A program made the translations under genes and the position numbers. A model generated the notes under the pieces. That model made no database searches. It was given only the letters and a program-made list of their open reading frames with translations, and was not told where the DNA came from. This document shows positions 47,318 through 61,518 of a DNA stretch of 64,000 nt, piece after piece (within the stretch, counting starts at the first letter, position 1; every line of letters begins with the position of its first letter). The stretch covers positions 1,488,001 to 1,552,000 of the forward strand of contig NZ_CP142208.1 of NCBI RefSeq assembly GCF_036865545.1. The letters run 5' to 3'. The DNA comes from Erwinia sp. E_sp_B01_1 (GTDB lineage: Bacteria > Pseudomonadota > Gammaproteobacteria > Enterobacterales > Enterobacteriaceae).

Positions 47318-49003
47318 TTAACGGATCATTGGCAGGTTCAGTTCATGTTTAGTCGCGCAGCTCTGGGCCAGCTCATACCCCGCGTCAGCATGGCGCATAA
47401 CGCCTGTTGCCGGGTCATTCCACAGTACGCGGCCAAGGCGCTTATCCGCTTCCGGGGTGCCATCACAGACGATCACCACACCTGAATGCTGAGAGAAGCC
47501 CATGCCCACACCGCCGCCGTGATGCAGGCTGACCCAGGTCGCTCCGCCTGCGGTATTCAGCAGGGCATTCAGTAGCGGCCAGTCGGAAACCGCATCGGAG
47601 CCATCTTTCATCGCTTCCGTTTCACGGTTTGGTGAAGCCACAGAACCACAGTCCAGATGGTCACGACCAATCACCACCGGCGCTTTCAGCTCGCCATTGC
47701 GGACCATCTCATTAAACGCCAGACCGGCAAGATGGCGCTCTCCCAGGCCCAGCCAGCAGATACGCGCTGGCAGTCCCTGGAAGGCAATGCGCTCCTGCGC
47801 CATATCCAGCCAGCGATGCAGGTTTTTATGATCCGGGAAGAGCTCTTTAAGTTTGGCATCGGTTTTATAGATATCTTCCGGATCGCCCGACAGCGCCACC
47901 CAGCGGAAAGGCCCTTTGCCTTCGCAGAACAGCGGGCGAATATAGGCCGGAACGAAGCCTGGGAAGTCAAAGGCATTTTTCACCCCTTCCTCCAGCGCCA
48001 CCTGACGAATGTTGTTGCCGTAATCCACCGTTGGCACGCCCATATGACAGAAGTCGAGCATCGCCTGAACATGAACAGCCATAGACGCGCGGGCAGCTTT
48101 TTCCACGGTTTTCGGTTCGGCTTTACGGCTCTGTTCCCAGCGCTCCAGGCTCCAGCCAATCGGCAGGTAGCCATTGATCGGATCGTGAGCCGAAGTCTGA
48201 TCGGTGACAATATCCGGCTTCATTCCTCCCGCGCTGGCGCGCTTCACCATCTCAGGCAGGATTTCGGCGGCATTGCCCAGCAGGCCCACTGAGATGGCGC
48301 GCTTCTCTTTGTTGGCCTTGTCGATCATCTCCAGCGCCTCGTCCAGCGTGGTGGCTTTGTAATCGACATAACGGGTGCGCAGACGGAAATCGATACGCGA
48401 CTCCTGACACTCCACCGCCAGCACTGATGCGCCAGCCAGCACGCCCGCTAAGGTCTGAGCGCCACCCATGCCGCCCAGGCCAGCGGTGAGGATCCATTTG
48501 CCGCTGAGATCGCCGTTATAGTGCTGGCGGCCTGCTTCGGCAAAGGTTTCAAAAGTGCCCTGGACGATGCCCTGCGCACCAATATATATCCAGGACCCGG
48601 CGGTCATCTGGCCATACATCATCAGGCCCAGTTTATCGAGCTCGTGGAAATGATCCCAGGTTGCCCAGTGTGGCACCAGGTTAGAATTGGCAATCAGCAC
48701 GCGTGGGGCATCGGCATGGGTGCGGAACACCCCCACAGGCTTGCCGGACTGCACCAGCAGCGTCTCTTCCGGTTGCAGCGCCTTCAGCGATCGTAAAATT
48801 TGCTCGAAACACTCCCAGTTTCGCGCGGCTTTACCGATGCCGCCGTAGACCACCAGATCTTCAGGACGCTCGGCCACATCCGGATCGAGGTTATTCTGAA
48901 TCATGCGATATGCCGCTTCAATCAGCCAGTTGGCACAGTGAAGTTCGCTGCCATGAGGCGCGCGCACTTCACGGGCCATTGCATTACGTAAATTGTCACT
49001 CAT
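47318..49003 (-). CDS. hutU: Urocanate hydratase HutU
   Basis: 561 residues from the second of two adjacent ATGs (AAGGA 7 nt upstream). Converts urocanate to 4-imidazolone-5-propionate with tightly bound NAD+ as electrophile. Hallmarks: [33 protein letters not shown] loop [41 protein letters not shown] (catalytic Cys) and [20 protein letters not shown]. Second gene of hutHU: its start is 26 bp after the hutH stop. Cytoplasmic. Confidence 0.97.
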
Positions 49004-49029
49004 CATCTGATCCTTAAATTGGGGGTTAC

Positions 49030-50574
49030 TTAACGTGCTGCACTGGGAAAAAGGGCGGCGACGGGCGCAGGCCAGCTGTCGCGGCTTGCCCATAACTGCA
49101 TCTGTTCGATATCCGGGGCCATCAGGCGATCTTTCTCAAGGAAAGCTACCCGCTTGCGCAGGGCGGCCAGTTCACTTTCCAGCAGCGGGGAGCTTTGCAG
49201 CGGACGATTGAAATCAATGCCCTGGGCGGCTGCCATCGCTTCAATGCCCACCACGGCGGCGGTGTTGAAACACATCGCACCCAGACGGCGGGCGGCGTAA
49301 GTGGCCATCGAGACGTGATCTTCCTGATTGGCGGAGGTGGGCAGGCTGTCCACGCTGCCGGGATGTGCCAGCGATTTGTTCTCAGAGGCCAGTGCCGCAG
49401 CGGTAACCTGAGCAATCATAAAGCCGGAGTTTACGCCCCCCTCGTTGACCAGGAAGGGCGGCAGACCGGAAAGGCCGGTATCCAGCAGCAGGGCCATACG
49501 GCGTTCGGAGATGGCACCGATCTCGGCAATCGCCAGCGCGAGAATATCGGCGGCAAAGGCGACGGGTTCGGCATGGAAGTTGCCGCCAGAGATCACGTCG
49601 CCTGTCTCACTGAACACCAGCGGATTATCTGACGCGGCATTGGCCTCAATCTGCAGGATTTTTGCCGCATGGATGAGATTATCCAGGCAGGCTCCCATCA
49701 CCTGAGGCACGCAGCGAATGGAGTAGGGATCCTGTACGCGGCCACAGTCAGCATGCGAGTCCAGAATTTCGCTGCCTTCAAGCAAAGAAGAGACAGCGGC
49801 AGCCACCACAATCTGACCGTGCTGGCCGCGCGCTTCATGAATACGATGATCGTAAGGTTTGATCGAGCCTTTGATCGCTTCCAGCGACAGGGCACCGGCA
49901 ACCAGACCCGCCGCAAAGACCTTTTCACCCTCAAACAGACCCCGGAGCGCCAGTGCGGTAGAGACCTGGGTACCGTTAAGCAGAGCCAGACCCTCTTTGG
50001 GACCGAGCACGAAGGGTGCCAGACCCGCCAGTTTCAGGCCTTCGGTCGCCGGGATACGTTTGCCTTCAACCCGGACATCGCCTTCGCCTAACAGCATCAG
50101 CGACAGGTGCGCCAGAGGAGCCAGGTCGCCAGATGCACCCACCGAACCTTTTTCCGGAATGCAGGGCATAACGCCGGCATTGAACAGCGCCAGCAGGCCA
50201 TCAATCAGTTCGATGCGCACGCCGGAATGACCCCGGGCCAGGCTAATCACTTTGGTGGCAATAATCACCCTGACCACGTCATCAGGAAGCAGTTCGCCGA
50301 TGCCCACGCTGTGCGAAAGCACCAGGTTGCGCTGCAACTCTTCCAGGCGCTGGGCAGGGATAGAGGTTTGAGCCAGCTTGCCAAAGCCGGTATTGATGCC
50401 ATAGGTCACCTTGCCCGCATTGACGATGGCTGCAACGGTGTCCCGCGACTTAAGAACGCCGGCACGAGCGTGTTCATCCAGCGCCAGACGGACCTCTCCG
50501 TGATAAATGCGTTTAAGCATCGCCAGATCCACTTTTCCGGGGACCAGGGTACAAAGTTGCGGGGTGGCTGACAT
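49030..50574 (-). CDS. hutH: Histidine ammonia-lyase HutH
   Basis: 514 residues from the ATG with AGGAG 7 nt upstream. First step: histidine to urocanate plus ammonia. The MIO-forming triad Ala147-Ser148-Gly149 sits in [15 protein letters not shown]. Other HAL active-site residues are present: Tyr in YGINTGFG, His in SHSVGIG, Asn in [14 protein letters not shown] (Gln, Tyr, Arg), the Phe in [10 protein letters not shown] and Glu in NQEDHVSM. A normal, active enzyme is expected, in contrast to the second HutH-like gene at 59.7 kb. First gene of hutHU; repressor operators and a promoter lie just upstream. Confidence 0.97.
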
Positions 50575-50681: not shown

Positions 50682-50709
50682 TGTATAGTCTTGTCTATAC
50701 AATTAGCAA
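50682..50709 (-). promoter_or_regulatory. Predicted hutH promoter with embedded HutC operator
   Basis: Minus strand -35 TTGCTA (50709-50704), 16-bp spacer, -10 TATACA (50687-50682). The spacer contains TGTATAGACA (50701-50692), a one-mismatch HutC-type operator, so repressor binding would block polymerase. Confidence 0.5.
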
Positions 50710-50731: not shown

Positions 50732-50890
50732 AAACTTTTACCAGACCCTGTTGGCGCATCAGGTACCCGTTTGCGGGACGTTCAGCAGCAAATCTTGTGC
50801 ACCGGGTCTGAGGAATCTGCTGTCGCCTGTTAAAGGCTGCGCCATGCCAGGGCAGAATGCTCAACGGTGGTGCAGTCAACGCCGCCCAGA

Positions 50891-50900
50891 TGTATATACA
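50891..50900. promoter_or_regulatory. HutC-type operator upstream of hutC
   Basis: Perfect palindrome TGTATATACA 55 bp before the hutC ATG; a TTGACA follows 10 bp later. Implies autoregulation. Confidence 0.6.
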
Positions 50901-50955
50901 TTTAGCACCGTTGACAGTAAACTGGTTAAAGTTTTTTCATCAAGGAAGCTTTACT

Positions 50956-51711
50956 ATGGTTGACCAGACTGCCATTTCTCAACTCTCTGCTGCCATGAGC
51001 GATCTCCCGGCGCCCATTTATCAGCGGGTGAAGCAGGCGATTATCAGCCAGATTTCCGAAGGCGTCTGGAAACCCAATCAGCGAGTCCCTTCCGAAAGTG
51101 AGCTGGTGAATGAACTGGGCGTCAGCCGGATGACCATCAACCGCGCATTACGCGAGCTGACCAGTGAAGGGTATCTGCTTCGTATGCAGGGTGTGGGTAC
51201 CTTTGTTGCCGAGTCCAAGGGCTATACGGCGATGCTGGAAGTGCACAATATTGCAGAAGAGATCGCCCAGCGCGGCCATCGTCACAGCTGCAAAGTGGTG
51301 GAGCTTCGCAAAATCAAGGCCGATCCGGAACAGGCAGCCGTGCTGGGGCTAACCACAGGTCACGCCATTTATCATTCAGTCATTGTGCATTTCGAAAATG
51401 ACCTGGCGGTACAGCTTGAAGATCGCCTGGTGAATCCGCTGGTGGCTTCTGACTATCTGGAACAGGATTTTCAGACGCAAACGCCTTATACCTATCTGAT
51501 GCGTGTCGCACCCTTAACGGCGGGAGAGCATATTGTGGAAGCGGTATTGCCGGACCGCCAGCAGTGCGGTGCTCTGGCGATCGAATCCAACGAACCCTGC
51601 CTGCTGATCCGTCGCCAGACCTGGAGCGATGCGAAAATCGTCACCTACGCAAAACTGCTCTATCCGGGGTCGCGCTATAAACTGCTGGGCCGCTTCAAAG
51701 GTCACGGATGA
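50956..51711 (+). CDS. hutC: HutC, GntR-family repressor of histidine utilisation
   Basis: 251 residues from the ATG with AAGGAAG upstream; an earlier ATG in frame is not conserved. N-terminal GntR winged helix (PIYQRVKQAIISQISEGVWKPNQRVPSESELVNELGVSRMTINRALRELTSEGYL-type, about 17-80) and a C-terminal UTRA ligand domain (about 95-245), the HutC subfamily layout. It should repress hut promoters and be released by urocanate. Sits between hutHU and hutFD, both on the other strand. Presumed operators TGTATATACA occur at each hut promoter in this window. Confidence 0.95.
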   Translation: MVDQTAISQLSAAMSDLPAPIYQRVKQAIISQISEGVWKPNQRVPSESELVNELGVSRMTINRALRELTSEGYLLRMQGVGTFVAESKGYTAMLEVHNIAEEIAQRGHRHSCKVVELRKIKADPEQAAVLGLTTGHAIYHSVIVHFENDLAVQLEDRLVNPLVASDYLEQDFQTQTPYTYLMRVAPLTAGEHIVEAVLPDRQQCGALAIESNEPCLLIRRQTWSDAKIVTYAKLLYPGSRYKLLGRFKGHG

Positions 51712-51805: not shown

Positions 51806-52354
51806 TTATTTCTCTCCGATCAGCGCTACCAGCAGCAGCGCTTCCGAAGAAGCCGGATCCAGCGGCTGCCCGTCGCTTTGCCACCATGCCCCCTGACCCT
51901 GTTGCAGCCTGAGGTCGCCGGTAATCCATTCGCCAGCCAGCACGTACACCACCCCTGATGCCGCGCTGTCCGGGGAAAATGCCTCACTGATTACCCCGAC
52001 ATCGGCCCGGTGCGTGTCACGACGGGTCATCACATTAAAGTCACTGCTGACGCCCCCACTGAGCCTTGCATGGATCTGATCTTCACCAGCAAAGGCAAAC
52101 GGCTGATGGCGGAGTAGCTGCTGGCGGTATTTTCCTTCGGCATTCAGTTCCACGCCTTCCCCTTCCAGCAGGGTAATCACCCGGTCGATGCCGTGAAAGC
52201 GGGAAAAGGCGCCGTCTGTGGCCAGGGTCGCTATGCTGATGCGCCAGCTGAAATCGGTGGCCTCAGGCGGAAAACTGATAATTTCGCGGGTTTCTCCCCC
52301 GCCATTCCGCCAGCGGCTGACGGGCAGGGTGTTGCTGTCATAAAAGTGGATCAT
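51806..52354 (-). CDS. hutD: HutD family protein
   Basis: 182 residues, cupin-like all-beta protein of the HutD/Ves family. The signature SRWRNGGGETREII opens the protein, followed by SWRISIATLATDGAFSRFHGIDRVITLLEGEGV. In other bacteria HutD is needed to keep hut flux in bounds (possible N-formylglutamate or formiminoglutamate sensor) rather than for a catalytic step. Start overlaps the hutF stop by 4 bp (ATGA). Operon hutF-hutD. Confidence 0.93.
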   Translation of the reverse strand: MIHFYDSNTLPVSRWRNGGGETREIISFPPEATDFSWRISIATLATDGAFSRFHGIDRVITLLEGEGVELNAEGKYRQQLLRHQPFAFAGEDQIHARLSGGVSSDFNVMTRRDTHRADVGVISEAFSPDSAASGVVYVLAGEWITGDLRLQQGQGAWWQSDGQPLDPASSEALLLVALIGEK

Positions 52355-53709
52355 TTCAGCGCCTCAATGACCGTACGTAAAGCCGCGTCGGCCTGTTGCT
52401 GCATCGGGTGTTTTCCCTGGTAAATAACCTGGCGGCCCGCGACAAATACATCCTGGATCTGTCCGCGCTGCCCGGCAAACAGCCAGCGGTTGAGCAGGGC
52501 GTGGTTTTCGGTGCTTCCCAGCAATGCATCATCTGCCAGCACCAGCCAGTCTGCGCGGTAGCCGATGGCAAGCTGGCCCATCTTCACGCCACAGGCTTGC
52601 GCGCCGCCCTCCAGGGCCTGGCGATAAAGCAGATCGCCCACCGAGGTTTGTTGCCCGCTCACAATCCGGTTGCGGCGACGATCGCGCAGACGCTGACCGT
52701 ACTCCAGCCAGCGCAGCTCTTCCACCACGTCCAGCGACACATGGCTGTCTGAACCAATACCCCAGCGGCCACCCTGAGCGATGTAGTCCGTTGCCGGGAA
52801 AATGCCGTCGCCCAGATTGGCCTCGGTAGTGGGGCAAAGTCCGGCAACAGCGCCACTGGCGGCGAGGCGGGCGACTTCGCCTGGATCGAGGTGCGTGGCG
52901 TGGATCAGGCACCACCGGGCATCCACATTAAAGCGGTTTAACAACCAGCTGACCGGACGTTCACCGCTCCAGGCCAGACTGTCGTTGACCTCTTTTTCCT
53001 GCTCGGCGACATGAATATGTACCGGCAGGGAGGCCGGGGTCGCATCCAGTATTTCACGCATCTGCTGTTCGCTGACCGCGCGAAGCGAGTGGAAGCAGAT
53101 CCCCTGATTGTGCAGCGGCTTGTCGGTAATCAACTCCGCCACCCGTTTCTGCTGGCGCAGATAGCTGGCGCTGTCCTGAATAAAGCGTTTCTGGCCCGGC
53201 TGAGGCGGCTGCGCGCCAAAACCGGCGTAGCTGTAAAGGACGGGAAGCAGCGTCTGACCTGTTCCGGCCCGCTCTGCTGCGGCAATCAACTGCTGCAACA
53301 TGTCATCGTTGGGATAGGGCGTGCCGTCGGTGTCATGATGGAGATAGTGGAATTCAGCAACCTGGGTATAGCCGCCTTTCAGCATATCGATATAGAGATG
53401 CGTGGCGATATCCCCTACCTGCGAGGGCGAAAGGCGTTGCACCATGCGATACATTAAATCCCGCCAGGTCCAGAAGCTGTCCTGCGGATCGCCAGCCATT
53501 TCGGCAAGCCCGGCCATTACCCGTTGAAAAGCGTGGGAATGGAGGTTAGCCATTGCCGGGATTACCGCGCCATTCAGGCGTTGAGCATTATCCGGCGGGG
53601 AATCGGGTGTCAGAGAATGGATAAATCCTGCAGGGTCTACTTCAATCAATACGTTGTGATGCCAACCGTCCACCAGCAGGACGCGAGGCGCAAAATAGCG
53701 AGCCATCAT
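52351..53709 (-). CDS. hutF: Formimidoylglutamate deiminase HutF
   Basis: 452 residues; two adjacent ATGs, the first taken. Amidohydrolase-superfamily metalloenzyme converting N-formimidoyl-glutamate to N-formylglutamate and ammonia. Metal ligands lie in NLHSHAFQR, HIHVAEQEKEV, IHATHLDPGE and GSDSHVSLDVVEELR. With HutG it forms the two-step branch that yields formate rather than formamide. Divergent from hutI, from which it is separated by 73 bp containing a HutC operator. Confidence 0.95.
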   Translation of the reverse strand: MMARYFAPRVLLVDGWHHNVLIEVDPAGFIHSLTPDSPPDNAQRLNGAVIPAMANLHSHAFQRVMAGLAEMAGDPQDSFWTWRDLMYRMVQRLSPSQVGDIATHLYIDMLKGGYTQVAEFHYLHHDTDGTPYPNDDMLQQLIAAAERAGTGQTLLPVLYSYAGFGAQPPQPGQKRFIQDSASYLRQQKRVAELITDKPLHNQGICFHSLRAVSEQQMREILDATPASLPVHIHVAEQEKEVNDSLAWSGERPVSWLLNRFNVDARWCLIHATHLDPGEVARLAASGAVAGLCPTTEANLGDGIFPATDYIAQGGRWGIGSDSHVSLDVVEELRWLEYGQRLRDRRRNRIVSGQQTSVGDLLYRQALEGGAQACGVKMGQLAIGYRADWLVLADDALLGSTENHALLNRWLFAGQRGQIQDVFVAGRQVIYQGKHPMQQQADAALRTVIEALK

Positions 53710-53732
53710 GGTTGCTTCCCAGACAATGTAGT

Positions 53733-53742
53733 TGTATATACA
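53733..53742. promoter_or_regulatory. HutC-type operator in the hutF-hutI divergent region
   Basis: TGTATATACA followed directly by a second overlapping TATACATA repeat (to 53750). One site could control both hutFD and hutIG. Confidence 0.6.
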
Positions 53743-53782
53743 TATACATACTTATGAAACAACAGTAAAGCCGGGAGAGAAG

Positions 53783-55003
53783 ATGAGCGGTGAACTTCGC
53801 TGTGACAGCCTGTGGTACGGTGCCGATATCGTCACAATGCAGGACGGGAAGTATAGCATCATCCAGAACGGGGCTATTGCGGTTCAGCAGGACAGGATTA
53901 TCTGGATTGGGCCCTGGAAAGAAGCGAAACATATCAAAGCGGAGATCCACAATAATCTGGGCGGTGGAATAGTGACTCCAGGGCTGGTGGATTGCCATAC
54001 GCATCTGGTGTTCGGTGGCGATCGCAGCCATGAGTTTGAGCAACGCCTTAATGGTGTCAGCTACAGCGAGATTGCCGCGCAGGGCGGGGGGATTATTTCC
54101 ACCGTTACCGCCACCCGTAAAGCGTCGCTGGAGCAGCTGGTGGCCAGCGGCGGCTGGCGGCTGGAGCGGCTGCTTGCCGAGGGGGTGACCACCGTTGAGA
54201 TTAAATCGGGGTACGGGCTGGATAAAGAGAGCGAACTGCGGATGCTGAAGGCTATCCGTCAGCTGGCGAAACAGCATCCGGTTCAGATCCAGGCAACCTG
54301 TCTGGCCGCCCACGCCACACCCCCTGAATTTAAAAGCGATCCCGATGGCTGGATCACCCTGATTTGTGACGAATTGCTGCCTCAGGTAGCCCACGAAAAA
54401 CTGGCTGACGCCGTGGATGCCTTTTGTGAACATCTGGCTTTTTCACCGGCGCAGGTCACCCGCGTGTTTGAAGCTGCGCAGCGTCTGGGATTGCCGGTGA
54501 AGCTGCATGCGGAACAACTGTCTTCCCTGGGCGGCAGCACCCTTGCAGCAAAATTTCATGCGCTTTCCGCCGATCATCTTGAATACGCTACCGAAGCTGA
54601 TGTGGCGGCGATGGCTGAAAGCGGCACGGTCGCCGTTTTGTTGCCTGGTGCTTTCTATTTACTGCGTGAAAAGCAGGTTCCTCCCGTTGAACTGTTCCGC
54701 AAATACAAGGTGCCGATGGCGCTGGCAAGCGATGCCAATCCGGGCACTTCTCCGGCGTTGTCGCTGCGTCTGATGTTGAATATGGGCTGCACGCTGTTTG
54801 GCATGACGCCGGAAGAAGCGCTGGCTGGCGTTACTCTTCACGGCGCGCAGGCGCTGGGGCTGGGTGAGACGCAGGGATCGCTGGAGACCGGCAAGTATGC
54901 TGATTTCGTCCACTGGCCGCTGCAACGACCGGCCGAGCTGGTTTACTGGCTTGGCGGGCAACTTCCCTGCCAGGTTATTTTCAGAGGAGAGGCAATACGA
55001 TGA
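53783..55003 (+). CDS. hutI: Imidazolonepropionase HutI
   Basis: 406 residues from the ATG with GGGAGA upstream; an earlier ATG overlapping the operator is rejected. Amidohydrolase-fold enzyme opening the imidazolone ring to give N-formimidoyl-glutamate. Zinc ligands His72 and His74 in [13 protein letters not shown], then [31 protein letters not shown] (His) and [14 protein letters not shown] (Asp). First gene of hutIG; its stop overlaps hutG by 4 bp. Confidence 0.96.
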
Positions 55004-55779
55004 AACCGTTTGAGTTTACTCAGGGAACCCTGCCGCTGCTGTTCAGCGCCCCTCATGCCGGCACGGCGCTGACGCCAGAGGTGGAGCAGGGGTTAAGTGA
55101 TGCCGCCAGAGGCTTGCCGGATACCGACTGGCATATCCCACAGCTGTATGATTTTGTGCGAGAAATGGGTGCCAGCGTGCTGGTGGCCAACTATTCCCGT
55201 TTCGTTATCGATCTTAATCGTCCTCCCGATAATCAGGCGTTATATAGCACTGCCACCACCGGTCTTTATCCTGAAACGCTGTTTGATGGCACGCCTACTT
55301 TTAAGCCAGGTATGACGCCAACCGACGCTCAGCGTCAGGGGTATCTGGAGAGGATCTGGACGCCTTATCATCAGCAGATTCAGCAGGAGCTGGCACGCAT
55401 AAAGCAGCAGTTTGGCTATGCGCTGTTGTTTGATGCGCACTCGATTGCTTCGGTGATCCCACGCCTGTTTGACGGAAAACTGCCGGATTTGAATCTGGGC
55501 ACCAACGGTGGGGAGAGCTGTAGCCCGGCTGTTACTTCAGCGCTGACCCATTTATGCGAGTCCCAGTCGGAGTTCAGTTGGGTGGTGAATGGCCGGTTTA
55601 AAGGTGGCTATATCACCCGTGCCTGGGGCAAGCCCGAACAGGATCAGCATGCGGTGCAGCTGGAGCTGGCCCAGTGCAATTATATGGATGAAACGCCGCC
55701 GTTTGGCTGGCGGGGCGACAGAGCCGCTGCTTTGCAGCCGCTGCTGAAAAAGATTATCGCAACGCTGTTGCAGCGCTGA
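55000..55779 (+). CDS. hutG: N-formylglutamate deformylase HutG
   Basis: 259 residues. N-formylglutamate amidohydrolase (FGase) family, not the agmatinase-like formiminoglutamase: [71 protein letters not shown]. It yields glutamate and formate, the last step of the route started by HutF. ATGA overlap with hutI shows translational coupling. A weak AAGCC/GGGCTT hairpin lies at its end, then the repeat region begins. Confidence 0.95.
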
Positions 55780-55810: not shown

Positions 55811-55970
55811 TTGGTGCAGCACACTAATTTGCCTGCATGTTTTCGTGCCTGGTCAGGGAGAGGGGGTTGGTGCAGCTCACTAAGTTGCCTGCATGTTCCA
55901 GTGCCTGGTCAGGGAAAGTGGTTTGGTGCAGCTCACTAAGTTGCTTGCATGTTCCCGTGCCTGGTCAGGG
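55811..55970 (+). repeat. Tandem array of three ~56-bp direct repeats
   Basis: Units begin at 55811, 55867 and 55923 with TTGGTGCAGC-CACTAA-TTGC-TGCATGTT and end GTGCCTGGTCAGGG. The unit contains the small palindrome CCTG-GT-CAGG. Related units flank the second palindrome copy at 61.3 kb. No gene is supported between 55780 and 56632. Confidence 0.85.
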
Positions 55971-56119
55971 AAAGTGGGCTGAACACAAAGACGCAAAAAG
56001 CGTCGTCCCTGACAGCTCGGCTCGCCACGTCCATGTGGCGAGACGCTTTGCTTATCAGCCCACTCTCCCTTCCCGTTAGCTTCAGTTTTGCCTGCCAGGA
56101 TGGGGATACACAGGTCAAA
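55968..56119. repeat. Palindromic repeat element, copy A
   Basis: Terminal inverted repeats GGGAAAGTGGGCTGA (55968-55982) and TCAGCCCACTCTCCC (56055-56069), 14 of 15 paired; inside are AAAGCGTC/GACGCTTT and CTCGCCAC/GTGGCGAG, giving one long nested stem-loop. Bases 55973-56090 are identical to 61370-61487, and similarity runs on beyond 56119. Confidence 0.85.
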
Positions 56120-56406
56120 ATACGTATGGGCTGTGCCAGGGATGCAATGAAATTATTACCGATACCGGTTAACAGCGTGCAGAGGTTTTTTCTGCACTCT
56201 TACAGGGCCGCTATGCACCTGAAAAGCGCAGGTACCTTCCTGAAAGACGTTGTCTGTTCTTAACCTCCGGCATTTTCTCCCAGAGTAGCCCTCATGTAAG
56301 TGGATAAACACCTCTGTTATAAACGGCGCACGCAGCTGAATTTGCCTGCTGATATCAGGTATCCCGCTATACCTGAACCGGATTTTCATAAGCTTCACCC
56401 GGGGGA

Positions 56407-56422: not shown

Positions 56423-56427
56423 CTGGT

Positions 56428-56437
56428 TGTATGTACA
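56428..56437. promoter_or_regulatory. HutC-type operator at the sigma54 start site
   Basis: TGTATGTACA, 9 of 10 to TGTATATACA, lying over the predicted start point of the -24/-12 promoter. Confidence 0.45.
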
Positions 56438-56522
56438 AGACATAACAACCTGTGACACAACTTATTAACATAGAGTGCGTCACAGTTTTATCTCTGAGCA
56501 CGGGAAGAGTGAGCTGTTTGGT

Positions 56523-56532
56523 TGTATATACA
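56523..56532. promoter_or_regulatory. HutC-type operator in the transporter leader
   Basis: Perfect TGTATATACA (flanked TTG...CATG) about 100 bp before the binding-protein start. The 853 bp between hutG and this gene hold repeats and regulatory sites only. Confidence 0.6.
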
Positions 56533-56632
56533 TGACATGGCTACTCAGCATCTCTTCTCTTTTAACAGACATTCACCGGTTTCGGGCGGGCGCATTGCCC
56601 TCGTCCGGCCATCATTTCTCCAGGAGCGCTTG

Positions 56633-57490
56633 ATGAAACATCTGTCAGTCCGTCGGGTAGTGCTTACCTCTATTGTTACTTCCGCCCTGCTTTGCGCATT
56701 ACCTTCACAGGCTAAAGAGTGGAAATCGATCACCATTGCCACCGAGGGAAGCTATGAACCCTGGAACCTGACCTTACCCGGCGGCAAGCTCAGCGGTTTT
56801 GAACCGGAACTGATGGCAGATTTATGCCAGCGAATGAAAATCAGCTGCAAGCTGGTGGTGCAGAACTGGGACGGGATGATCGCCGGAATGCAGGCTGGTA
56901 AATACGATGTGATCATGGACGCGATAGTGATCACGCCTGACCGCCGGAAGGTCATTGATTTTACCCTGCCCTATGCCTCCACCCCGGCCAGTTTTATTAC
57001 TACCAAAAGCGGTGGCGTGCTGCCTGCGGGCAGCGGCCCGGAAAAGATCGTCAAACTGCATGACGATCCTAAAGAGATTGAACCGGCAATTGCCAGTCTG
57101 AAAGCGGCGCTCAAGGGTAAAACCATCGGCATCGCCTCGGGCACTGTCTATACGCCTTTCATCGATAAATACTTCAGGGATGTAGCCACCGTGCGTGAAT
57201 ACAACGCCTCGGCGGATGCGATTCTGGATCTCCAGGCTGAGCGAATCGATGCCGTTTTTGATGACGTGACCTTTGCTAACTCGGTGCTGAGTAAGCCTGA
57301 AAACAAAGATTTGCAACTGGCTGGCACCCAGCTTGGCGGGCCGGTTTGGGGCGAGGGCGAAGCCTTGGGCATCCGCAAATCCGATGGCGATCTCAAAGCG
57401 AAACTGGATGAAGCGATCAAAGCCGCGCTGGCCGATGGCACGGTGAAAAAGCTCAGCGAAAAGTGGTTCAAAACTGACGTGACGCCTTAA
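56633..57490 (+). CDS. Periplasmic binding protein, polar amino-acid ABC transporter
   Basis: 285 residues from the ATG with AGGAGCG upstream; 37 earlier in-frame codons begin inside the operator and are rejected. Signal peptide about 1-24 (PSQA-K). SBP family 3: ITIATEGSYEPWNLTLPGGKLSGFEPELMADLC, GMIAGMQAGKYDVIMDAIVITPDRRKVIDFTLPY, GIASGTVYTPFI, LKAKLDEAIKAALADGTVKKLSEKWF. Closest in character to the HisJ/ArgT/octopine group, so histidine, urocanate or another cationic/imidazole compound are candidates. First gene of a five-gene operon ending in the HutH-like gene. Confidence 0.92.
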   Translation: MKHLSVRRVVLTSIVTSALLCALPSQAKEWKSITIATEGSYEPWNLTLPGGKLSGFEPELMADLCQRMKISCKLVVQNWDGMIAGMQAGKYDVIMDAIVITPDRRKVIDFTLPYASTPASFITTKSGGVLPAGSGPEKIVKLHDDPKEIEPAIASLKAALKGKTIGIASGTVYTPFIDKYFRDVATVREYNASADAILDLQAERIDAVFDDVTFANSVLSKPENKDLQLAGTQLGGPVWGEGEALGIRKSDGDLKAKLDEAIKAALADGTVKKLSEKWFKTDVTP

Positions 57491-57504: not shown

Positions 57505-58221
57505 ATGGCCATTCTCGGATTTGGTGAAAATGGCTGGGGATCCTTAATCCTCAGCGCGGCGCTGACCACATTGCTGCTCTCGCTGGTGGCGATGATGGTA
57601 GGAGCGGTGGTGGGCAGTGGAGTGGCTGCCGCCAAGCTCTCTCCCCGTCGTCCGGTGCGCTGGCTGGGTGATGGCTATTCAGTGATATTTCGCGGCATAC
57701 CGGAACTGTTGATTATCTATCTGTTTTATTTCGGCGGTTCCGGGCTGATTACGCAGATTGGCCAGCTTTTTGGGGCGGATGGCTTTATAGAGGTGCCGCC
57801 TTTCTTGATTGGTGCGCTGGCGATAGGGCTGATTTCTGCCTCCTATCAGGGAGAGGTTTTCCGTGCGGGCAGGCTGGCGCTGAACGCTGGTGAGGTCGAA
57901 GCGGCGCAGGCTATCGGCATGCCGAAGTGGCGTATTTTGCAGCGCATTATTCTGCCTCAGGTGGTGCGCTATGCCTTGCCGGGGCTGTCGAATGTCTGGC
58001 AGATGAGCCTGAAAGATTCCGCGTTAATCTCGGTCACCGGGATTGTGGAATTGATGCGGGCCAGCCAGGTTGCGGCAGGCTCGACGCGCCAGTATTTCAC
58101 CTTCTATCTGATTGGGGGCATCTGCTATCTGGTGTTGACCCTGCTCTCGAACACGGCATTTAAAAAGGCAGAACAACGCCTTGGCCGCGCCCATCAAAGC
58201 CGCACTGCGGCCCACAGTTAA
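57505..58221 (+). CDS. ABC transporter permease (HisQ-like)
   Basis: 238 residues, five TM helices. His/Glu/Gln/Arg/opine-type permease signature with the EAA loop AGEVEAAQAIGMPKWRILQRIILPQVVRYALPGLSNVW and conserved FRGIPELLIIYLFYFG. Starts 14 bp after the binding-protein stop. It forms a heterodimer with the next permease in the inner membrane. The C-terminus is basic (KKAEQRLGRAHQSR). Confidence 0.93.
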   Translation: MAILGFGENGWGSLILSAALTTLLLSLVAMMVGAVVGSGVAAAKLSPRRPVRWLGDGYSVIFRGIPELLIIYLFYFGGSGLITQIGQLFGADGFIEVPPFLIGALAIGLISASYQGEVFRAGRLALNAGEVEAAQAIGMPKWRILQRIILPQVVRYALPGLSNVWQMSLKDSALISVTGIVELMRASQVAAGSTRQYFTFYLIGGICYLVLTLLSNTAFKKAEQRLGRAHQSRTAAHS

Positions 58222-58232
58222 CAGGCGGTCAG

Positions 58233-58976
58233 ATGATTGATTTTCCTTTCCTGACGGAAACCTTCCTCAAGCTGGCGGCGGCGTTGCCGACTACGCTGGG
58301 GCTGTTTTTCTCCTCCTTTGTGCTGGGCGGGCTGCTGGCGCTGGTTATCCTCGCCTTGAGAATGAGCCGTAATCGCCTGCTGAGTGGTTTTGCACGGCTC
58401 TATATTCTGGTTTTTCGCGGCTCACCGCTGATGATCCAGCTGTTCCTGATCTATTACGGGCTGGGGCAGTTTGAAGTGATCCGTCACAGCTTTGTCTGGC
58501 CGGTGCTGCGCGAGCCGTTTTTCTGCGCGGTGGTGGCGCTGGCCTTGTGTACTGCTTCCTACACAGCAGAGATTTTTCGCGGCGGGTTGCTGGCAATCCC
58601 TTCGGGCCAGATTGAAGCGGGAATGGCCTGTGGCATGTCCCGCTGGCTGCTGCTGCGCCGCATTATCGCGCCAGTGATGTTGCGTTATGCGTTGCCTGCT
58701 TATTCTACCGAGGCGATCCTGCTGGTGAAATCCACCGCCCTCGCCAGTCTGGTTACCGTCTGGGATGTGACCGGAGTAGCTCAGCAAATTATCCAGCGTA
58801 CCTACAGGACGATGGAAGTTTTCGTCTGTGCCGCGCTGATCTACCTGATCCTCAATTTCATTATCGTCCAGATCTACGCCTGGACTGAGCGCAGGCTTTC
58901 ACCTCGTCTGCGCCCGGTGGAGGCCGATTTGCCTCTGCCCGTTCCCCCTGTGATTGCCGGAGATAAACATGAATAA
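58233..58976 (+). CDS. ABC transporter permease (HisM-like)
   Basis: 247 residues, five TM helices; [20 protein letters not shown] and the EAA loop [55 protein letters not shown]. Second membrane subunit of the polar amino-acid importer. Starts 11 bp after the first permease and its last 8 bp overlap the ATPase gene, so the genes are translationally linked. Confidence 0.93.
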
Positions 58977-59745
58977 CCCCGTCACCTTGTCGATGAGCGA
59001 GATCCGCAAGTCCTTCGGCTCGCTGGAGGTGCTGAAAGGCATCTCGCTGGAAGCCAGAAAGGGCGATGTTATTTCGATTCTCGGGGCCAGCGGCTCCGGA
59101 AAAAGTACCTTTCTGCGCTGTATTAATCTGCTGGAGATGCCAGATTCCGGCGTGGTGAGCGTGGCGGGTGAAACCATTGAGATGAAACGCCATGCGCGCG
59201 GTCATCAGATGGCCGCCAGTCACCGGCAGGTGGAGACGCTTCGCTCACGACTGGGGATGGTCTTCCAGAGTTTTAATCTGTGGTCGCATATGACCGTGTT
59301 GCAGAACGTGATTGAAGGGCCGTTGTACGTGCTGAAGCGAAATCGCAAAGAGTGCGTTGAACAGGCCGAGAAGATCCTCGATCGTGTGGGTTTACTGAAT
59401 CGCAAAGAGTTTTACCCGTCACAGCTTTCCGGTGGTCAGCAGCAACGGGTAGCCATTGCACGTGCGCTGGCGATGGAGCCGGAAGTGATGCTGTTTGATG
59501 AACCCACTTCAGCGCTGGATCCGGAGCTGGTGGGCGATGTGCTGAAAGTGATGCGCAGCCTGGCTGATGAGGGACGTACCATGCTGGTGGTCACTCATGA
59601 GATGGGTTTTGCCCGTAACGTTTCTAACCGGGTGGTGTTTATGCATCAGGGAACCATCGACTGTGAAGGGGAGCCGGAAGCGATGTTTGGCGATCGGGGC
59701 TCACCGCGTTTTCAGCAGTTTATTTCCAGTCACCGGGCGGGTTGA
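58969..59745 (+). CDS. ABC transporter ATP-binding protein (HisP-like)
   Basis: 258 residues from the ATG with GGAG upstream, starting inside the end of the preceding permease gene. Walker [11 protein letters not shown]-loop [19 protein letters not shown], signature [15 protein letters not shown], Walker [15 protein letters not shown], switch His in VVTHEMGF. The insertion [21 protein letters not shown] between Walker A and the Q-loop is usual for HisP/octopine-type ATPases. The HutH-like gene begins 1 bp after its stop. Confidence 0.95.
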
Positions 59746-59746
59746 G

Positions 59747-61249
59747 ATGAGCATGACAGAACTGGTGACCTGGGGCGATTCGCGTTTGCACTGGCAGGAT
59801 GTGGTCCACGTGGCGAAGTCATCGGCCAGGCTACAGTTGAGCCTGGCCGCCTGGCAGCGTATTCATACCGCCAGGGAGATTGTTGGCCTGATCGTCAGCG
59901 AAAAGCAGGTAGCTTACGGCATTAATACCGGACTGGGTGCGCTGTGCAATATCACTCTGGAAGAGGATCAGCTCAGTTTACTTTCACGCAATACTTTGTT
60001 GAGCCATGCCTGTGGCGTGGGGCCAAAGCTCACTGACGTTCAGGCCAGAGCGATTATCTGTGCGGCGGTAGCCAATTACAGTCAGGGGAAATCCGGCATT
60101 TCCCCTGGGGTGGTACAGGGATTGATCGCGCTGTTGAATTGCGGCATTACTCCGCAGATCCCTTCGCAGGGATCCGTGGGCTACCTGACCCATATGGCGC
60201 ATGCTGGTCTGGCGCTTATTGGGATTGGCAACGTGAGCTATCGCGGAGAGATTATTCCGGCAGCCGCGGCGCTGGCGGCAGAGGGGTTGCAGTCCTGTAA
60301 GCTGGGGGCAAAAGATGGGTTGAGCCTGGTTAACGGCACGCCGTGTATGACCGGGCTAAGCTGTCTGGCGCTTGAAGGGGCCAGTCGTTTGCTGGCCTGG
60401 GCAGACGTCACCGGTGCGATGAGTTTTGAAGCCTTACGCGGCCAGCAGGAAGCCTTTGATGCTGAAATCCTCGCCCTTAAGGGCAGCATGAATGTGCAGA
60501 TTGTCGGAGAGAGGTTGCGGCAGCTGATTGCGGGCAGCCAGATAGTAGAGGAGAGCAAAGGGATCAGAACGCAGGATGCGCTGAGTTTGCGTTCGATGCC
60601 GCAGATTCATGGTGCCTGTCGCGATCAGTTTGACTATGCCGCCCGGCAGATTGAGACGGAGCTGAATGCTGCCACGGATAATCCGCTGGTGTTAGGCACC
60701 CCGGAAAGCTGGCGGGTGGTTTCTCAGGCTAATCCTCACGGCGAGTCTGTGGCGATGGCGGCGGATGCATTAGCGATTGCTCTGGCGGAGTTAGGCAGCG
60801 TAGCGGAGCGAAGGCTTGATCGGTTGATTAATCCCCTGGTGAGTGGGCTGCCCCCCTTTCTGGTGGCCGAGCCGGGTGTCAATTCCGGCATGATGATTGC
60901 TCAGTATGTGGCCGCGTCGTTGTGCGGTGAGAACCGGCAGCTTGCACAACCGGCAGTGCTGGATAATTTCGTGACTTCTGGTTTGCAGGAAGATCATCTC
61001 AGCATGGGGACCAGCGCGGCACTGAAATTGCTGAAGCTGGCGGAGAATACCGTTCAGATTCTGGCGATCGAATATCTGCTTGCCGCGCAGGCGCTGGATT
61101 TCCATGATGCCGCCAGAGCAGGCGAGGGGACAAAGCGCGCCTGCAAGCTGTTACGGCATGAGGTGGCAACCTGGACAGAAGACCGGTGGTTAGCCCCAGA
61201 GATTGAGAAAGCCGCCGCGCTGATTCGGTCTGTGCATATTGCGGTGTGA
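59747..61249 (+). CDS. HutH-family protein lacking the MIO triad (histidine ammonia-lyase paralogue)
   Basis: 500 residues, aromatic-amino-acid-lyase fold over its full length. At the cofactor site it reads GSVG(142-145)-YLTHMAH where true HutH has [14 protein letters not shown]: the Ala-Ser-Gly that cyclises to MIO is exactly deleted. It also has QDALSLRS for QDPYSIRC (loss of the catalytic Tyr) and ANPHGES for GNFHAEP (loss of Phe). Kept: Tyr in YGINTGLG, His in SHACGVG, Asn in LVNGTP, Glu in LQEDHLSM. It is therefore unlikely to deaminate histidine by the MIO mechanism. Encoded directly behind an amino-acid ABC transporter under HutC-like and sigma54 sites. Start ATG at 59747 or 59753. Confidence 0.9.
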   Translation: MSMTELVTWGDSRLHWQDVVHVAKSSARLQLSLAAWQRIHTAREIVGLIVSEKQVAYGINTGLGALCNITLEEDQLSLLSRNTLLSHACGVGPKLTDVQARAIICAAVANYSQGKSGISPGVVQGLIALLNCGITPQIPSQGSVGYLTHMAHAGLALIGIGNVSYRGEIIPAAAALAAEGLQSCKLGAKDGLSLVNGTPCMTGLSCLALEGASRLLAWADVTGAMSFEALRGQQEAFDAEILALKGSMNVQIVGERLRQLIAGSQIVEESKGIRTQDALSLRSMPQIHGACRDQFDYAARQIETELNAATDNPLVLGTPESWRVVSQANPHGESVAMAADALAIALAELGSVAERRLDRLINPLVSGLPPFLVAEPGVNSGMMIAQYVAASLCGENRQLAQPAVLDNFVTSGLQEDHLSMGTSAALKLLKLAENTVQILAIEYLLAAQALDFHDAARAGEGTKRACKLLRHEVATWTEDRWLAPEIEKAAALIRSVHIAV

Positions 61250-61255
61250 AAGGGG

Positions 61256-61364
61256 TGTTGCCTGGTCAGGGAGCTTGCTAAGTTGCCTGCTTTTTCGATG
61301 CCTGGTCAGGGAGAGTGGATTGGTGCAGCTCACTAAGTTGTCTGCATGTTCCAGTGCCTGGTCA
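61256..61364 (+). repeat. Degenerate 56-bp direct-repeat units
   Basis: Two units like those at 55.8 kb: a degenerate one (TTGCCTGGTCAGGGAGCTTGC onward, shortened) and a good one starting at 61320 (TTGGTGCAGCTCACTAAGTT) and ending GTGCCTGGTCAGGG. They directly follow the HutH-like gene. Confidence 0.75.
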
Positions 61365-61518
61365 GGGAGAGTGGGCTGAACACAAAGACGCAAAAAGCGT
61401 CGTCCCTGACAGCTCGGCTCGCCACGTCCATGTGGCGAGACGCTTTGCTTATCAGCCCACTCTCCCTTCCCGTTAGCTTCAGTTTTGTCTGCCAGGGTGG
61501 GGATACACAGGTCAAAAC
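61365..61518. repeat. Palindromic repeat element, copy B
   Basis: Perfect terminal inverted repeats GGGAGAGTGGGCTGA (61365-61379) and TCAGCCCACTCTCCC (61452-61466), inner stems AAAGCGTC (61394-61401) with GACGCTTT (61439-61446) and CTCGCCAC (61418-61425) with GTGGCGAG (61432-61439). Identical to copy A over 118 bp. Confidence 0.88.

Follow-up and report, generated by a model that had tools for sequence, protein, structure and literature searches.

The question raised by this locus is what a homologue of histidine ammonia-lyase (HAL) does when it lacks the residues that form the MIO cofactor and stands near a hut cluster whose own hutH still carries them. The window analysed is a stretch of 64,000 nucleotides from Erwinia sp. 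E_sp_B01_1 (GCF_036865545.1, NZ_CP142208.1, positions 1,488,001-1,552,000, forward strand), and all coordinates refer to it (table 1). Alignment of the 500-aa protein P0001 with the HutH of the window confirmed what the first-pass annotation had claimed, that the MIO triad is removed: P0001 reads GSVG-Y-LTHMAH, with a single Tyr in place of ASGD, so that ASG has been lost and Asp changed to Tyr. Its further observations also hold, as the catalytic Tyr and Phe are replaced (QDPYS by QDALS, GNFH by ANPH) and Tyr57 (HAL Y53), His87 (H83), Asn196 (N195) and Glu415 (E414) are retained; Gln276, Arg282 and Met383 are likewise retained in the alignment, with positions mapped by motif. The HAL residue numbers and roles used here are those of the P. 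putida enzyme, to which sites were matched by motif. A displaced triad was ruled out, since none of the x-S-G triplets of P0001 (KSG, VSG, NSG and TSG) lies at the MIO position. A pseudogene or frame slip was also ruled out: the frame is open without internal stops and the homologues listed show 70-99% identity across 96% or more of the query. P0001 is a full-length protein of predicted HAL fold, and structure comparison places its model nearest to HAL structures. Membership of the aromatic amino acid lyase family is indicated by PF00221 on P0001 homologues (precomputed), by matches to NCBIfam HAL-family models and by the HAL-like predicted fold. The match to PRK09367 (histidine ammonia-lyase) reaches 541 bits, over the cut-off of 524, and that to the stricter hutH equivalog falls under its cut-off (526.2 vs 539.15).

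Table 1. Features of the window discussed in the text, with strand and basis of assignment.
Feature	Position	Strand	Basis
hutU, urocanase	47318..49018	-	name from annotated relatives L006, L010
hutH, MIO-bearing (ASGD)	49030..50574	-	profile match, alignment
TTGTCTATACAA palindrome between hutH and hutC	50691..50702		motif scan
hutC, histidine utilization repressor	50857..51711	+	open-frame limits, start provisional
hutD	51806..52354	-	homology to annotated HutD of L010
hutF, formimidoylglutamate deiminase	52351..53709	-	homology to annotated genes of L006, L010
TTGTATATACAT palindrome between hutF and hutI	53732..53743		motif scan
hutI, imidazolonepropionase	53783..55003	+	homology to annotated hutI of L010
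hutG, N-formylglutamate deformylase	55000..55779	+	homology to annotated hutG of L010
TTGTATGTACAA palindrome, HutC-operator-like, upstream of transport-lyase operon	56427..56438		motif scan
TTGTATATACAT palindrome, HutC-operator-like, upstream of transport-lyase operon	56522..56533		motif scan
Periplasmic binding protein SBP_bac_3	56633..57490	+	Pfam; nearest solved relatives nopaline-/octopine-binding proteins
ABC permease 1 (BPD_transp_1)	57505..58221	+	Pfam
ABC permease 2	58233..58976	+	conserved beside Y-form genes
ABC transporter ATPase	58954..59745	+	Pfam
P0001, MIO-free HAL homologue (Y-form lyase), proposed hercynine trimethylamine-lyase	59747..61249	+	alignment, tree, fold prediction
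GSVGY: single Tyr146 replacing Ala-Ser-Gly-Asp of MIO site	60170..60184	+	alignment
QDALS: Leu279 replacing HAL Tyr280	60572..60586	+	alignment
ANPH: Pro330 replacing HAL Phe329	60728..60739	+	alignment
Tyr387 (ergothionase chain Lys383 and HutH Val at same position)	60905..60907	+	alignment

As judged from alignment and tree, the triad-less HAL homologues are a conserved clade, here termed the Y-form. GSVGY is present in all 121 proteins P0001-P0121 (P0001 and the best 120 homologues listed), and the GSxGY form in all of the best 120 homologues listed for a Pseudomonas-like member. Among 206 HAL-family proteins from fetched loci, 137 are Y-form, 66 carry ASGD and three are ergothionase-type, a tally in which overlapping loci cause some genes to be counted more than once; L138 and L139, from which no protein could be extracted, were left unclassified. 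Removal of near-copies kept 101 of 298 sequences for the residue alignment (75 Y-form, 23 MIO and three ergothionase-lineage). The MIO triad, Tyr280 and Phe329 of histidine ammonia-lyase (EC 4.3.1.3) are absent from P0001 and from all 75 non-redundant Y-forms, which have Tyr for ASGD (75/75), Leu at Tyr280 (75/75) and Ala, Pro or Gly at Phe329 (75/75). HAL Tyr53, His83, Gln277, Arg283 and Glu414 are retained in 75/75, and Asn195 and Met382 in 74/75. Asn195 is missing in L006 and L169, so their substrate may differ. Branch supports in the tree are 100/100 for the ergothionase lineage, 88/84 for the Y-form and 100/100 for HutH; the first two join weakly (89/80, not starred), as separate branches with deletions of one and three residues, respectively. 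In another tree, of 101 rows without outgroup, 6S7J, L006, L162 and L164 lie on long branches and are placed unsurely.

To our knowledge, ergothionase is the sole characterised MIO-free relative of these proteins. A passage of PMC13405746 describes it as resembling HAL, PAL and TAL, without MIO, and as converting ergothioneine to trimethylamine and thiourocanate; together with structure 6S7J, this contradicts the first-pass statement that all characterised HAL/PAL/TAL lyases need MIO. The Treponema denticola enzyme (PDB 6S7J) shares with P0001 the HAL fold, the lack of MIO and Leu at HAL Tyr280, and like the Y-form it retains HAL Arg283, Tyr53 and Glu414. It is about 30% identical to P0001, with a TM score of 0.89 to the P0001 model. 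In contrast, its MIO site is shorter by one residue and that of the Y-form by three, it keeps Phe329, which the Y-form does not, and it loses Asn195 and Met382. Two lysines are essential in ergothionase. Those of 6S7J (chain positions 63 and 383) correspond to Cys67 and Tyr387 in P0001, and both are absent from 75/75 Y-forms, which have Cys, Ser, Ala or Val at the first site and Tyr or Leu at the second (Tyr in 74/75). P0001 is a HAL relative without MIO, as ergothionase is, but by its sequence it is probably not an ergothionase, because the lysines are missing and the branches, which join weakly, are separate. The likeness to HutH (EC 4.3.1.3) lies in the fold (TM 0.92, 1GKJ vs model), an identity of about 40% and the imidazole- and carboxylate-binding residues; the differences are the missing ASG, Tyr280 and Phe329 and the separate clade.

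We give about two chances in three to the reading that P0001 is a cofactor-free trimethylamine-lyase which turns hercynine (histidine betaine) into urocanate, and we infer its substrate, chemistry and residue roles as follows. The ABC transporter of the operon would import hercynine, P0001 would remove the beta proton and expel trimethylamine, and the resulting urocanate would be carried on to glutamate by HutU, HutI, HutF and HutG. HAL has to couple the amine to its MIO group, ammonia being a poor leaving group; trimethylammonium, being quaternary, could leave without attachment to an electrophile, which would make MIO dispensable. The loss of MIO, Tyr280 and Phe329 would give space for three methyl groups, and the clade-specific Tyr146 and Tyr387 may point towards the cation. 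The carboxylate would be held by Arg282 and Asn196 and the imidazole by His87, Met383 and Glu415, with Tyr57 as the base. As the residues with which HAL binds imidazole remain in place, chemistry and alignment suggest that hercynine would fit the site more readily than ergothioneine with its 2-thio ring. This reading is supported by the residue pattern of the 75 Y-forms (75/75) and by the existence of an MIO-free trimethylamine-lyase, ergothionase, which shares the change of Tyr280 to Leu. Among the titles and abstract starts listed from open-licence PubMed Central, none reported a hercynine lyase.

The P0001 gene is the last of a tight operon that encodes a binding protein, two permeases, an ATPase and the lyase. 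The binding protein matches nopaline- and octopine-binding proteins at 213 and 210 bits (next 117). The 68 Y-form-linked binding proteins aligned, including that of the window, have Trp45, Asp97, Arg105, Asp211 and Asp212 in common, residues that are compatible with a cationic ligand, although they are not proof of one. A direct repeat of 219 nt (96% identical, 55902-56120 and 61299-61517) brackets the transporter-lyase operon; it belongs to a repeat scattered through the genome, with 46 matches, and mobility of the cassette through it was therefore set aside.

The palindrome TTGTATATACAA, which we take to be the HutC operator, occurs with at most one mismatch four times in the window, against 0.01 expected, and two of these operator-like sites precede the transport-lyase operon, as would befit a member of the hut regulon. 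Allowing at most two mismatches, it was found upstream of 7/67 other SBP_bac_3 operons (1.4 expected). These seven are all the other SBP_bac_3 operons fetched from the window's class, and a hutC-like gene adjoins the operon in the four examined (L003, L155-L157). These shared palindromes point to hercynine; their absence before the other 60 of the 67 operons, all Rhizobium-like, speaks against it.

The wider distribution was surveyed in 398 genomes of the phylum, with the Y-form called at 699 bits or more (next match 478). A Y-form gene was identified in 23 genomes, all with the motif, and HutU is present in 23/23 of them vs 147/398 overall (p = 3e-11 ignoring kinship, and about 1e-3 with each of the seven families counted once). 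HutU lies at most 15 kb from the Y-form gene in 19/23, and exactly one HutU is found in 19/23; the urocanase gene of the window's genome is likewise single at the threshold used. This co-occurrence and the single HutU also point to hercynine. A second HAL-family gene occurs in 23/23, so the Y-form is not required for urocanate as such. The transporters adjoining the Y-form gene are of OpuAC type in ten genomes, SBP_bac_3 in nine, BCCT in two and none of these in two, the labels covering the transporter types used as queries, with Pfam spot checks on some loci. OpuAC is a glycine-betaine family and BCCT a betaine/carnitine/choline family, and the presence of these quaternary-ammonium transporter families beside Y-form genes points in the same direction. 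Pfam confirmed OpuAC in L004, L006, L009, L145 and L154, SBP_bac_3 in the window and L003, and BCCT in L034; the remaining assignments were made by homology to these. Against the hercynine reading, the binding protein is of amino-acid/opine type, not betaine type, in 9/23 Y-form genomes, that of the window among them.

The gene order of the window recurs in an Erwinia plasmid and in Rhizobium. Among 80 Rhizobiales loci, 56 have this order (judged by the binding protein), seven have OpuAC instead and 17 have neither; dipeptide-type binding proteins are among the neighbours in two loci with neither (L093 and L113). In only 33/80 does the fetched stretch include a hut gene, which, with the 17/80 lacking the transporter types searched, also weighs against hercynine. 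The suggestion that the triad-less clade always stands beside ABC transporters stood in part: the clade is conserved and its neighbours are mostly ABC transporters, but this is not universal, given BCCT transporters in L034, L161 and L164 and no searched transporter in those 17 Rhizobiales loci and in 2/23 sampled genomes.

Some relatives are embedded in hut genes. L161 has the order hutU-BCCT-Y-form-hutI-hutG, all in one direction, an operon that points to hercynine as the substrate; in L034 the series runs hutI, a 309-aa frame without label, hutU, BCCT, Y-form, hutH; and on a Priestia plasmid the Y-form accompanies hutU, hutI, a gene of the agmatinase family and two MFS genes. On Klebsiella variicola plasmid p4253-2 (L006:455-10328), hutU, an OpuAC-type ABC transporter, the Y-form, hutD, hutC and hutF lie together, and some HAL-family match, all forms of the family together, was found in 197 Klebsiella plasmid records. 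One hut cluster (L164:583-9000, genome G569) contains both a gene of the ergothionase lineage, accompanied by an OpuAC protein, and a Y-form, accompanied by a BCCT transporter. Other relatives adjoin other pathways, which counts against the hercynine reading. The Y-form of an Agrobacterium plasmid (L004) has as neighbours a HutU homologue (48% identical to the window HutU), a Mo-dependent S/N-oxide reductase and a betaine transporter. On Sodalis praecaptivus plasmid pHS1 (L169:2498-10284), an ABC transporter and the Y-form are followed by CoA transferase, 3-hydroxyacyl-CoA dehydrogenase and enoyl-CoA hydratase genes, as if an acrylate product continued as a CoA ester. The neighbours of L004 and L169 suggest that Y-form enzymes have diversified. 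Rhizobium bangladeshense plasmid p1 (L009:4015-10485) carries an ergothionase-lineage gene (GSIGAADL) with CoA-transferase, SDR, MaoC and glycine-betaine binding protein genes; these neighbours indicate that ergothioneine may not be its substrate.

The Y-forms of L145-L152 are 67-72% identical to P0001. The nearest named proteins of L145 are from Pseudomonas, and its Y-form shares 94% identity with a P. marginalis counterpart. In L145, hutU and hutH are separated by a permease homologue, an OpuAC protein, one more frame and an ATPase, with the Y-form as the fifth. The hut operon of Pseudomonas fluorescens SBW25 contains hutH1, in a module also present in P. aeruginosa, and hutXWV takes part in histidine uptake, as passages of PMC8871633 report; the latter is evidence against a purely hercynine role. 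Since, by our reading, these are the same five genes as in the SBW25 module, hutH1 is very probably the Y-form on grounds of gene order; its locus has an OpuAC-type transporter, whereas the window has SBP_bac_3. We take PA5096 to lie within the P. aeruginosa hut locus, in which PA5093 would be the HAL-like gene. For the betaine-like transporters PA5096 and PA5103, a 2013 Colwellia paper (in a passage of PMC3691474) gives the substrates as not known, and PA5093 is named hutG in a passage of PMC12772324, where the locus tag may be a slip. The Y-form of L145 (L145:9653-11158) lies above the curated NCBIfam hutH equivalog cut-off (544.9 vs 539.15 bits), so automated pipelines will call it histidine ammonia-lyase.

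Alternatively, P0001 could be an ergothionase, removing trimethylamine from ergothioneine or its sulfonate to give thiourocanate or a derivative that proceeds through a HutU homologue. The L004 set of HutU homologue, Mo-enzyme and betaine transporter resembles an ergothioneine-sulfonate route (cited in a passage of PMC13405746), and the one characterised MIO-free relative fits the P0001 model well, as noted above. We nevertheless regard this as unlikely, given the replacement of both lysines throughout the Y-form, the separate tree branches, the two lineages side by side in L164 and the single HutU in the window's genome, which argues against thiourocanate as the product. Action on a different histidine derivative, with a substituted alpha nitrogen or some other leaving group (for example Nalpha,Nalpha-dimethylhistidine or a histidine opine), would agree with a binding protein nearest to nopaline- and octopine-binding proteins. 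It appears improbable, because amines less substituted than trimethylamine would be poorer leaving groups without MIO, betaine-family transporters stand beside 12/23 sampled Y-form genes, and in the linked binding proteins Asp stands at the place of the Ala, Ser or Asn of NocT and OccJ.

The earlier interpretation was of a protein that binds a similar amino acid and performs another reaction, which fits the evidence, or of a sensor or regulator subunit, for which no support was found. Three groups important for HAL catalysis are missing and the gene is near hutH, as might be expected of a non-catalytic sensor, HutH partner subunit or regulator; the substrate-binding residues are however retained in 74-75 of 75 Y-forms, the gene ends a transport operon of its own, and the hut operon of L161 has it between hutU and hutI, together with BCCT, all of which makes such a role very unlikely. 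That P0001 is an ordinary or backup histidase working without MIO is hardly credible, despite the PRK09367 match and the histidine uptake by hutXWV (reported in part of PMC8871633), with MIO, Tyr280 and Phe329 in 0/75 Y-forms and P0001 under the hutH equivalog cut-off.

A broader and decidedly tentative view, which we hold to be rather doubtful, is that the MIO-free HAL homologues are a wide family of cofactor-free betaine-lyases, in which an ancestral loss of MIO gave rise to trimethylamine-lyases for various amino-acid betaines. Hercynine would be the substrate for the window, Pseudomonas hutH1, Rhizobium and Priestia, ergothioneine for 6S7J and perhaps its sulfonate for L004; L169 and L009 would take other aromatic amino-acid betaines, the acrylates continuing as CoA esters. 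If so, many genes named histidine ammonia-lyase would encode trimethylamine-releasing enzymes. The hercynine reading of P0001 would itself account for the puzzling second "histidase" gene that many bacteria of soil and plants carry; it also points to a possible source of trimethylamine and is a warning on database names. According to a passage of PMC4595634, histidine betaine is depleted in biocrust soil water and used by none of the tested isolates, which implies that a degrading route exists in nature; a hercynine lyase would offer a candidate enzyme for this loss of histidine betaine from biocrust water.
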